IMG/VR virus record: IMGVR_UViG_3300037587_000005 | Span: 1 to 23,480 of that record | Length of the DNA stretch: 23,480 bases | Source: a virus | Reading direction: 5' to 3' (one strand) | Part shown: positions 11,974-23,071 of the stretch, one piece after another | Position numbering within the stretch: position 1 is the first letter of the stretch | Layout: each line of letters begins with the position of its first letter | The notes under the pieces: model-generated | The model's database searches: none | What the model was told of the DNA's origin: nothing | What the model saw: only the letters and a program-made list of their open reading frames with translations | Position numbers and translations under genes: made by a program

Positions 11974-12955
11974 CTACGCTACGGAAGACTTAAAGATACC
12001 ACCTGCCATTTCGGCACGGTTTGGTGTTACTGCGAACGCTAAGTAGCTATCAATGAACCACTGCATTTCTTTCTTATCGAAGTAAACGTCAGAAGTTAAT
12101 GGGATAGTCTCACCTGCTAGTAATGCTTTTGGCATTAATAAACAAGCTACACATTTCTCGTCGTTAGCTGTTACGTCATACGCGTTACCATTACCTGCGT
12201 TAGATAAGAAGTGTGTAACTCCTACGTCTGTTGCTTTAGGGAAACGGTTAGTAACTTGAATACGAATACCATTCGACTTCAATACGTTACCTTCTGCGTA
12301 GTCACCATTACTGGTAGAGAAGTCACGACTAACTAACTTGTCGTTCTTCAATAGCGCGTAGTATTGAGCAGGGCGAACTAAGATAACTGCATCTTCTAAT
12401 TCTACGTCCTTCTCTTCTACTTTCTGACTCAAGTCCTGAATAGCAATTTCAAATGCTAACGGGTCTAACTCGTCATCTACTGCGCTTAGTACTAATACTG
12501 TACCACCTTGGAAACCTTCTGGTGCTGTGCGTACGATGTTGGCAGGAGTCTCACCTGCCCAACCACCTAACGTTACACCCTCTGGGTCTACGTTGGTAAT
12601 CTGACTTGCCTTGATACCTTGGATAAGGAATGACTCGTCAAAGAACTTACCGATAGTCTTACCATGTTCTAAGCCGACTTCCATGCGAGTGTTGATGTGA
12701 GATAAGAAAGCATCTAATACGAATTCGTTAGAACGCGCTAATACTACTGTATCTACTTTAACACTGATGTTGTCGAAAGTTGGTGAACTATCAGTCGGAC
12801 GTACACCACGAGTTACTTTCTGTAACGAACTATAACCGATACGGTCATTAGTAATCGTGTCTGTACCACGTACTGTTTTGAAGTTAAAGAACTGGCGCAT
12901 GAAAGACTTCTTCAAGAAACGATGTTCTACTTCACCACCATACTGTTCAATGTAA
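11974..12955 (-). CDS. Major capsid protein, exon 2 (gp10A-like; residues 29-355 after splicing)
   Basis: Main coding part of the capsid protein. After predicted splicing to exon 1 (13754-13839) the junction codon is CTT, and the protein reads NPLYIEQYGGEVEHRF across it, 355 aa in all (T7 gp10A is 345 aa). The 'Y-I-E-Q-Y-G-G-E-V' stretch aligns with the 'LFLKVFGGEVLTAF' start of the T7 HK97-type fold. It is followed by the FFNFKTVRGTDTITNDRIG strand (E-loop region), VRPTDSSPTFDNI, and the helix DAFLSHINTRMEVGLEHGK. An apparently intact frame starting at ATG 13011 includes 18 codons of intron. That ATG lies inside intron helix P9 and lacks a ribosome site, so I reject it as the start. The gene ends with TAG at 11976-11974. 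Confidence 0.9.
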
Positions 12956-13753
12956 CTTTGTATTCTAATCACTGCGTTAATGTGACCACGTTCTCTTATG
13001 AACTGCTGCATGTTCCCATACAGAATAGACTATATCTTATACCATGAATGGTATGATGGCGCTTCGAGTTCACTTGAACCCTACTCCTCCCTTGAGGATA
13101 GTCGTTGCACCTTACTTAGTAATCGGGTAATACTTACCATTGTCATTAATGACTCTATTAACTGTACCATTACCTACACTAACTTCTCTAGCTATCTTTC
13201 GTTGACTCCAGCCTAGTTTACTAAGTTCTTTTATCTTAGTTGCGAGTGCTGGTGTTACTACTGCTAATGAGTGTGTATATCCTGTTTGTCTAGTTAATCC
13301 TAATGCGTGTGCGTGTATAGAGTTCTCTCTATGTGTTACCCACTCTAGGTTGTTCACATGGTTGTTTTGTTTATTACCATCTTTATGATTTATACAACGT
13401 TTATCATGTTCGTTGTCCTCACCAAATAACTCCATCACTAGCCTATGCGGGTATATATTCTTATACCCTGCATCACCTGTGTGTGAGCGTAGTTGTATTC
13501 TTAAATACCCATGACCGTTGTCGAACGGTTTCTTCCATAGGTTACTTTTGAACGACCACACTCTACCTGTTACGGTTACACCATAACTAGGGAAGTTTTT
13601 ATGTATTCTTAATTCTGCTTGTTGCATTTTATATCCTGTTTAACAGTTGCAATTATTACTAAGTCTTGGCTCAGTATTACCCTTTAGGGCTTCCACTGAG
13701 TTCACCATCTTATAATTCTACCTATTACTAAGTAGAACGCCTTACATTATGAA
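12956..13753 (-). ncRNA. Group I self-splicing intron (IA-type) in the major capsid gene
   Basis: A 798-nt intron with a complete set of helices on the minus strand. P1: exon CGCT plus intron TT (13757-13752) with AAGGCG (13743-13738), giving the conserved U-G pair at the 5' splice site. P2: 13737-13732 / 13721-13716. P3: GATGGTG (13709-13703) / CGCCATC (13061-13055). P4: CTCAGT (13700-13695) / ACTGAG (13675-13670). P5 hairpin: 13690-13679. P6a: 13664-13655 / 13123-13114. P7: GACTAT (13103-13098) / ATAGTC (13033-13028). P7.1: 13097-13086. P7.2: 13080-13067. P8: 13054-13039. P9: 13023-13006. P9.1-like hairpin: 13003-12990. P10: exon-2 TTACATT (12955-12949) with AATGTAA (13748-13742). The last intron base is G. 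From memory, the P7-P9 part closely resembles the T4 td intron. P7.1 and P7.2 mark subgroup IA. The intron holds an HNH gene in its P6 loop and gives a stop codon soon after the 5' splice site when unspliced. Confidence 0.95.
13112..13627 (-). CDS. Intron-encoded HNH homing endonuclease
   Basis: A 171-aa protein lying wholly within the capsid intron, in the loop of P6. Residues 15-33 (YGVTVTGRVWSFKSNLWKK) form a NUMOD4-like segment. Residues 60-108 are an HNH domain: PHRLV (H61), INHKDGNKQNNHVNNLEWVT (H81, N84 and N90-N93 region) and R/ENS. Residues 139-160 (GWSQRKIAREVSVGNGTVNR) form a helix-turn-helix, as in NUMOD1-type DNA-binding tails. Such enzymes cut the intronless allele, so repair copies the intron in. 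An ACAGGA ribosome site lies 7 nt upstream of the start. The stop codon and last codons (PITK) overlap the 3' strand of P6a (13114-13123), so coding and ribozyme structure share bases. Expected target: the capsid gene around codons 28-29. Confidence 0.92.
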   Translation of the reverse strand: MQQAELRIHKNFPSYGVTVTGRVWSFKSNLWKKPFDNGHGYLRIQLRSHTGDAGYKNIYPHRLVMELFGEDNEHDKRCINHKDGNKQNNHVNNLEWVTHRENSIHAHALGLTRQTGYTHSLAVVTPALATKIKELSKLGWSQRKIAREVSVGNGTVNRVINDNGKYYPITK

Positions 13754-13839
13754 AGCGGGTTGACATTACCTGTGTCCTGACCACCTTGGTGACCTGAACG
13801 TGTGATGTCTGCTGATGTTGGTTGTCCTAAAATTGACAT
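13754..13839 (-). CDS. Major capsid protein, exon 1 (N-terminal 28 codons plus 2 nt)
   Basis: A short 5' exon reading MSILGQPTSADITRSGHQGG then QDTGNVNP, plus the first two bases (CT) of a Leu codon completed by exon 2. The flexible, Gln/Gly-rich start is typical of T7-like capsid N-arms, which lie inside the shell. The strongest ribosome site of the region, AGGAGA at 13853-13848, sits 8 nt before the ATG, as expected for the most highly made protein. Without splicing, translation would stop after 30 residues (CTT TCA TAA). The exon is too short to be picked up by ordinary gene finding, so it is easily missed. Confidence 0.92.
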
Positions 13840-21634: not shown

Positions 21635-22650
21635 TACACACCTGCCTTTATTTGTATGTATGCGAGTCTTTTAAACTCTTTCAATGCTGTTACTTGTGCG
21701 CCACTGAAACCACATGCTAATCCACTCTCTTGTAAGAAGTTTATAACGTCACTTGGTTTACCTGTTCTACGCATCCATAGTAAGAACGCTTGTTCTACTA
21801 ACATTTCCACAGCATTCGTATAGTGTCCTTGATAAGCCTCTAAACAGCGCTTTGCAGCTTCTCTATCGGTACGGACACCTTTTAGTATAGCGACAGCTTT
21901 TGCCTCGCCACATTGCAGCGCCTTGCGCTTAGGATTGTACGTTTTAGTGGGCAAATAGCGATTGGCTAATTTACCAGAAATTTTAGGTAGACCTGCAATA
22001 TTATCGGCAGTATCACCCATCAATAATTGATGCCAAAACCACCCTGTGCCGTAGCCTACGAGCTTAGGTTGAAGATTTCCGACATCTTGATATGAAACTG
22101 TGCCATATCCATTTGCACGTACCATTTTGCCTGTCTTTTGGTCACAATGGAGTCCCATTGCCATATTCAAGTCTTTGTCACCTGACATTATCACCGACAA
22201 GTTCTTAGCATTCTCTATACCACTATGTAACATCTTGTGTTGATGTTGTGTCATCGAGTCATCGGCTTCTTGTAGTAAGTTAACTACTGGTGTGACATTC
22301 TCAGTCTGGTAGCTAACAAGGAAGTTACGTAGTATTGCTACTCGTTCTTTAACCTCAACATTCTGCCCTGAGCGTTGTGCCTGATAAGGCTTAACTGTTG
22401 CAATTTGTTCTCGTCCACCTTTCATACCTAATGTGATATGATTGTTTACGAATTGCGCTCCTGCTAATTTACGTTTAATCTCTATGTGTTTCTTTAGTGC
22501 TCTGATGTTTGAATCCACTGACTCGTCTAACCAACAACCACATTCGTAGGCTCCAAAATCTGCGTCATACTGTAGAATTCTCCCACTTACGTAGGCGTTT
22601 TGTTGACTGTCAGATTGTGCTGCCGCCTTTGCCATCTCTGTAATATTCAT
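21634..22650 (-). CDS. 5'-3' exonuclease, T7 gp6 / FEN type
   Basis: A 338-aa flap-endonuclease/exonuclease of the T7 gp6 class, used to remove RNA primers and degrade host DNA. The acidic metal-binding residues fall in family order: RILQYDADFGAYE (D29, D31), LLQEADDSM (E128, D130, D131), SVIMSGDKDLNM (D158, D160), and the helix-3-turn-helix segment LMGDTADNIAGLPKISGK (D213, D216). A lysine/arginine-rich arch region is seen at about 76-101 (KGGREQIATVKPYQAQRSG). The start given (MNITEM) overlaps the HNH-AP2 gene by 41 nt. A second ATG five codons on (MAKAAAQ) is a possible alternative; all motifs remain either way. It would act with the DNA polymerase, expected to lie upstream of the window. 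Confidence 0.92.
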   Translation of the reverse strand: MNITEMAKAAAQSDSQQNAYVSGRILQYDADFGAYECGCWLDESVDSNIRALKKHIEIKRKLAGAQFVNNHITLGMKGGREQIATVKPYQAQRSGQNVEVKERVAILRNFLVSYQTENVTPVVNLLQEADDSMTQHQHKMLHSGIENAKNLSVIMSGDKDLNMAMGLHCDQKTGKMVRANGYGTVSYQDVGNLQPKLVGYGTGWFWHQLLMGDTADNIAGLPKISGKLANRYLPTKTYNPKRKALQCGEAKAVAILKGVRTDREAAKRCLEAYQGHYTNAVEMLVEQAFLLWMRRTGKPSDVINFLQESGLACGFSGAQVTALKEFKRLAYIQIKAGV

Positions 22651-23071
22651 GCTCTAATTCTGTCCTATCTTTCTTTGCTTGTTCTAAATCGAAAGTTGCT
22701 TTCTTTCGTCGTCTACCATTTATTGTATTAACGTATGCGTAGAATGAACCACTTCTGTTTACACCTACTCCCTTTACACCTGTTGTGGAGTGTTTACGCA
22801 AACTGGTGTTTCTGCAATTTTCAGTGTTTGTGACCTCACGTAAGTTGTTAGGGTGGTTGTTTGTTTTGTCTCTGTCTATATGGTCTACATACGCAGGTAA
22901 ATAGCCGTGAACTAACCCAAACACTATTCTGTGTATTCTGTAAGGTACACCATCTATAGATGTAGTCGGATAGCCTAAGCTATCCAACCCACCTAATAAT
23001 GGTCTGTCTTTATAGATTGAGAATACAATGTTATTTCGTAATTCGAATTTAGATTGTATTATCTTTATCAT
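22610..23071 (-). CDS. HNH homing endonuclease with AP2 DNA-binding domain
   Basis: A 153-aa selfish endonuclease. Residues 44-90 form an HNH domain: YRIHRIVF (H47), VDHIDRDKTNNHPNNLREVT (H64, N75 and N76 region) and NTEN. Residues 98-145 form an AP2/ERF-type DNA-binding domain (GVKGVGVNRSGSFYAYV, then ATFDLEQAKKDRTE). This HNH-AP2 architecture is typical of free-standing phage homing endonucleases. It starts on a TAATG overlap with the acidic-tailed gene and runs 41 nt into the exonuclease gene. No ribozyme core is seen around it, so it seems intron-less, inserted between two replication genes. It probably cuts related phage genomes lacking it at this locus. Confidence 0.9.
   Translation of the reverse strand: MIKIIQSKFELRNNIVFSIYKDRPLLGGLDSLGYPTTSIDGVPYRIHRIVFGLVHGYLPAYVDHIDRDKTNNHPNNLREVTNTENCRNTSLRKHSTTGVKGVGVNRSGSFYAYVNTINGRRRKKATFDLEQAKKDRTELEHEYYRDGKGGSTI

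Follow-up and report, generated by a model that had tools for sequence, protein, structure and literature searches.

Introns in phage capsid genes have precedents. RT-PCR and N-terminal sequencing established that the capsid intron of the mycobacteriophage LittleE is spliced (PMC3706429), and crAss-like phages have major capsid genes interrupted by group I introns, one such gene lying in five fragments (PMC7886860). The DNA polymerase gene of T7-like phages can also be interrupted, by an intron with a group IA core and an endonuclease ORF in P6a (PMC3428280). The insertion described here has that same core and ORF placement, in the capsid gene of a T7-like phage.

The 23,480-base window that we analysed is IMG/VR virus record IMGVR_UViG_3300037587_000005, an environmental fragment of an Autographiviridae-like phage. 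Its minus strand encodes T7-type RNA polymerase, connector, scaffold, capsid and tail genes; membership of the family was indicated by an RNA polymerase of phrog_414, a connector of phrog_449, a scaffold of phrog_1018 and a capsid of phrog_267. The nearest isolates, among the best 60 of 1217 matching phage records, were the Alteromonas phages vB_AspP-H4/4 and vB_AmeP_R8W of the genus Foturvirus, whose capsid proteins are ~72% identical to that of the window.

The major capsid gene is split into two exons on the minus strand. Exon 1 (13754-13839) supplies codons 1-28 and two bases of codon 29, and exon 2 (11974-12955) the remainder, with matches to phrog_267 (E 8.7e-74) and Pfam Gp10A-like (E 3.9e-9). 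Between them lies a 798-nt group I intron (12956-13753) that starts UUCAUAAUG and ends CAAAG, the last base being the omega-G. The ATG at 13839 is preceded by AGGAG, and exon 1 encodes the conserved N-arm from the conserved start. Read without splicing, the frame from this ATG yields the N-terminal arm and then meets a stop just inside the insertion. Removal of 12956-13753, with splice sites at 13754/13753 (5') and 12956/12955 (3'), gives a 355-aa capsid protein with the junction NPL|YIEQYGGEV in frame; GNVNPLYIEQYGGEVEHR is the peptide across the junction in the predicted spliced product. The splice position is uncertain by one T (CCGCT|T...G|T), with an identical mRNA either way, and the omega-G and the splice-site U.G pair lead us to favour the cut given here over the one-T alternative.

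Comparison with intronless relatives demonstrates the insertion and fixes its exact boundaries. The spliced frame, which starts MSILGQPTSADITRSGHQGGQDTGNVNPL, aligns with the N-terminus of intronless capsid proteins. The NPL-YIEQYGGEV junction is uninterrupted and in the same frame in H4/4 and R8W, as the 355-aa in-frame product proposed in the initial annotation predicts, and the alignment is free of gaps in JSF7 and PhPV1.2. Nor does any of the 31 IMG/VR relatives spanning the site show an interruption there. That annotation had suggested alignment to intronless relatives and had named related capsids containing the IRERGHINAVIR stretch as evidence that would count against an intron; the stretch was absent from the related capsids examined, the close ones reading NPL-YIEQYGG and the more distant ones NPL-HIEQYGG or NPL-FIEQYGG. 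A mechanical ORF call instead places the capsid start at ATG 13011 (11974-13011, minus strand; 345 aa), so that its first 19 residues are intron-derived; the 19 residues before YIEQYGG in this frame were found in no relative examined. The presence of RGHINAVIR in relatives was suspected from tblastn matches beginning at residue 7 of the query, and was rejected when alignment showed a chance extension into the N-arm.

The RNA features of the insertion could be read directly from the minus strand. P1 (13738-13757) pairs exon CGCU (13757-13754) with guide GGCG (13741-13738), and U13754 of the exon forms the splice-site U.G pair with G13741; the last intron base is G12956, as expected of a group I intron. 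The adjoining guide AAUGUAA (13742-13748) pairs over 7 bp with UUACAUU at the start of exon 2 (12955-12949), as had been claimed for P10. P1 and P10 place both exons on one continuous guide, 13748-13738. These are followed by the P2 hairpin UUCUAC/GUAGAA (13716-13737), the P3 5' strand GAUGGUG (13703-13709; partner CGCCAUC, 13061-13055), and P4 (CUCAGU/ACUGAG, 13670-13700), which encloses P5 (CCC/GGG, 13689-13680). The P6a 5' strand ACUUAGUAAU (13655-13664) has a perfect 10-bp partner, AUUACUAAGU (13123-13114), and the two strands flank an ORF. In the 3' domain of the core (13028-13103), P7 pairs GACUAU (13103-13098) with AUAGUC (13033-13028), and P8 is AUACCAU/AUGGUAU (13054-13039), next to the 3' strand of P3. 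Two hairpins, P7.1 (13098-13085) and P7.2 (13081-13066), lie between P7 and that strand, as in subgroup IA introns, and the P9 hairpin CUGUAUG GGAA CAUGCAG occupies 13006-13023. With P3-P8 and P4-P6 domains and P7 all present, the element is recognizable as a group I intron, and its core is of group IA type and complete from P1 to P10. Every helix and the U.G pair listed in the initial annotation, including P3, P7, P8 and P7.1/P7.2, were recovered at the coordinates it had given.

The intron contains two copies of the 10-mer ACTTAGTAAT on the minus strand, one in the P2 loop (13733-13724) and one as the P6a 5' strand (13664-13655). The P6a 3' strand therefore has a possible alternative partner in the P2 loop, although the double occurrence may be chance.

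The RNA structure goes beyond what chance would produce. With the ORF replaced by an added 4-nt linker, the ORF-deleted intron (281 nt) folded at -85.7 kcal/mol against a mean of -61.4 kcal/mol for shuffled sequences (z -5.23), none of 200 shuffles being as low, and the minimum-energy structure included P2, P3, P4, P5, P6a, P7.2, P8 and P9. The covariance-model search proposed in the initial annotation gave a divided answer: at gathering score, Rfam found no match in the whole window, while a permissive search recovered Intron_gpI (RF00028) in the 3' half on the minus strand (13006-13233; 31.1 bits, E 7.5e-6; gathering score 50), with a second partial match in the 5' half (13642-13699; 15 bits). 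Four ORF-less relatives, run as controls, reached 94-106 bits. The window intron most likely falls below the cut-off because its ORF splits the core inside P6a.

At least 120 related stretches (L048-L167) were fetched from IMG/VR by the core pattern GTGCARCGACTA...AAGATATAGTC. The covariation alignment comprised 24 sequences, namely 23 ORF-less introns, three of the Rfam controls among them, and the window's ORF-deleted intron, from which the structure was drawn. In this alignment 85.0% of cells were paired, against 69.1% when shuffled and 34-48% when slid, and the covariation score was 0.361 versus 0.109, which demonstrates a covarying conserved core. For P3, 97.6% of cells were paired and 5/7 base pairs had changed on both strands; P9 reached 94%, six of its seven pairs having changed on both strands; P4, P6 and P6a were likewise backed by covariation. 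Because the pattern used for fetching specifies P7, this helix lies outside the test. Pairing was weak for P7.1 (36%), P7.2 (56%) and P8 (69%), probably owing to column shifts in the alignment.

The P6a loop carries an intact ORF (13112-13627, minus strand) that was absent from the initial annotation. Its 171-aa product matched phrog_59 (E 2.2e-36), a family listed among the intron-encoded families in Bastillevirinae (PMC11878797). Matches to Pfam HNH_3 (E 3e-8) and to the HNH homing endonuclease structure 1u3e (E 1.1e-8), together with an HNH core of NHKDGNKxNN...NLEWV, place the protein with the I-HmuI-type enzymes. We take structure 1u3e to be I-HmuI itself. Searches with the HNH protein found no near relative. 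From its sequence, WSQRKIAREVSVGNGTVNRVIN reads as a putative C-terminal helix-turn-helix-like stretch, and AGGAUAUAAAAUG upstream of the ORF is a plausible ribosome-binding site. The ORF ends within P6a, its stop codon sharing the final base of the 3' strand, and translation could therefore compete with ribozyme folding. A second HNH endonuclease gene (HNH_3, phrog_99; 22610-23071, minus strand) is apparently free-standing and overlaps the start of a gene that, judged by eye, resembles a T7-type exonuclease.

We are highly confident that the insertion is a mobile group IA-type intron, marked by P7.1/P7.2, with an HNH homing endonuclease in P6a, its splicing and homing being judged from studied relatives. 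Three other accounts were weighed against this one. The intron might have been damaged after once splicing, leaving a shortened capsid translated from ATG 13011 in frame through the 3' splice site. In its favour, the 345-aa frame from this ATG is uninterrupted, yet the open stretch involves only 56 intron bases and could easily arise by chance. The 19 extra residues have no counterpart in any relative examined, exon 1 retains the conserved N-arm and the conserved start with AGGAG upstream, and the core helices are all intact, so that we consider this account very unlikely.

It is still harder to credit a free-standing HNH gene lying between two separately translated capsid fragments with no RNA splicing. 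HNH genes are often free-standing in phage genomes, as the gene at 22610-23071 illustrates; here, however, the upstream fragment would have ~30 residues and terminate soon after entering the insertion. The ORF is also enclosed in a full ribozyme that shows covariation, and the junction agrees with intact genes at single-base resolution. A misassembly that put the intron into the capsid gene appears equally far-fetched. The locus is known from a single environmental record, and the allele was found in no other record searched, but capsid exon matches extend on either side of the insertion, and P1 (4 bp) and P10 (7 bp) are complementary to these very exons, unlike a random join.

A mobile intron at this site would act as follows. 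During late transcription the intron RNA would fold and guanosine would attack after U13754; the exons would then be joined through P1/P10, and the spliced mRNA would encode the 355-aa capsid. When a relative lacking the intron infects the same cell, the endonuclease would cut or nick that relative's capsid gene near codon 29, and repair would then copy the intron into it. We infer both splicing and homing here from relatives that have been studied, the introns of T7-like DNA polymerase genes (PMC3428280) and of LittleE (PMC3706429). That virion production would depend on splicing, as raised in the initial annotation, can soundly be inferred.

The intron's arrival in the capsid gene was probably recent, because every relative examined at the site is intronless. 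Its 3' half shares 70-80% identity with introns that interrupt genes for DNA polymerase, RNA polymerase and primase/helicase in other phages. Several of these phages are Autographiviridae, and the likeness makes a jump from such a gene plausible.

To survey host genes, we examined the open frame just downstream of each IMG/VR intron, which gave at least 82 distinct frames. The resulting counts rest on one core pattern, among the matches listed, and are not frequencies. By Pfam, at least 17 of the 82 distinct downstream genes encode capsid proteins (SU10_MCP, 8; Mu gpT, 5; Gp10A-like, 2; P22 coat, 2), a sum that assumes no member was matched by two of the four families. Other downstream hosts were tape measure (at least 9), ribonucleotide reductase, DNA polymerase and terminase genes. 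Structural genes thus look like frequent hosts of related IMG/VR introns, with capsid hosts from several unrelated families. Two stretches, L121 (398-626) and L085, carry ORF-less introns mid-gene in capsid genes of T7-type (Gp10A-like), cyanopodovirus-like phages, and in both the exon before the intron clearly belongs to the same protein; in L050 and L094 the upstream open frame fits, judged by eye. Four further stretches (L084, L089, L130 and L153) contain two group I core matches ~280 bases apart on the same strand, which suggests a tandem pair of introns or a twin arrangement.

The initial annotation had implied that capsid introns are rare, a view that finds no support in these counts or in the cases of LittleE and the crAss-like phages. 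An intron in a capsid gene is not exceptional; what sets this one apart among the records searched is the codon-29 site. An exact-motif scan of IMG/VR for P7 followed by exon 2, the signature of a same-site intron, returned 0 matches, and a scan for exon 2 preceded by G returned 14, all unrelated to this capsid. Across the 31 IMG/VR relatives, these exact-motif scans and the best 60 of 1217 matching phage records, no other record had a codon-29 intron. We regard as evenly balanced the broader proposition that codon 29, phase 2, is an unrecorded site in T7-type capsids and also one case of a broad, little-described and recurrent invasion of phage capsid genes by one type of group IA core, which would make capsid synthesis in many uncultured phages dependent on splicing.

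The locus is a clear example, resolved to the base, of a mobile intron in the structural gene whose product a T7-like phage needs in greatest abundance, and intronless relatives are at hand for comparison. It also illustrates a problem of annotation: gene callers would probably mis-annotate the capsid as 345 aa with a false N-terminus, and the default Rfam cut-off misses the intron. The frequent occurrence of related IMG/VR introns in capsid genes is also relevant to the limits that splicing sets on the expression of late genes.

Among the closest systems, LittleE likewise has its major capsid gene interrupted by a ~0.8 kb intron; that intron contains an ORF for a homing endonuclease, follows a U and ends in G (PMC3706429). 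LittleE is an unrelated siphophage with an unrelated capsid, and its insertion is at nucleotide 496 of the gene (PMC11855218) rather than at codon 29. Its endonuclease ORF, termed both HNH and LAGLIDADG-like within the same paper, lies on the opposite strand, unlike that of the window (PMC3706429). The T7-like polymerase intron differs from ours in its host gene, DNA polymerase and not capsid, and in that the HNH motif of I-PfoP3I lies near the C-terminus (PMC3428280). The HNH core of the window enzyme can be aligned with the I-HmuI-type structure 1u3e, although identity is low. The crAss-like phages share group I capsid introns with the window and are otherwise unrelated to it. L121 and L085 have the same Gp10A-like capsid family and the same kind of intron core, with introns that, unlike that of the window, are ORF-less and mid-gene.
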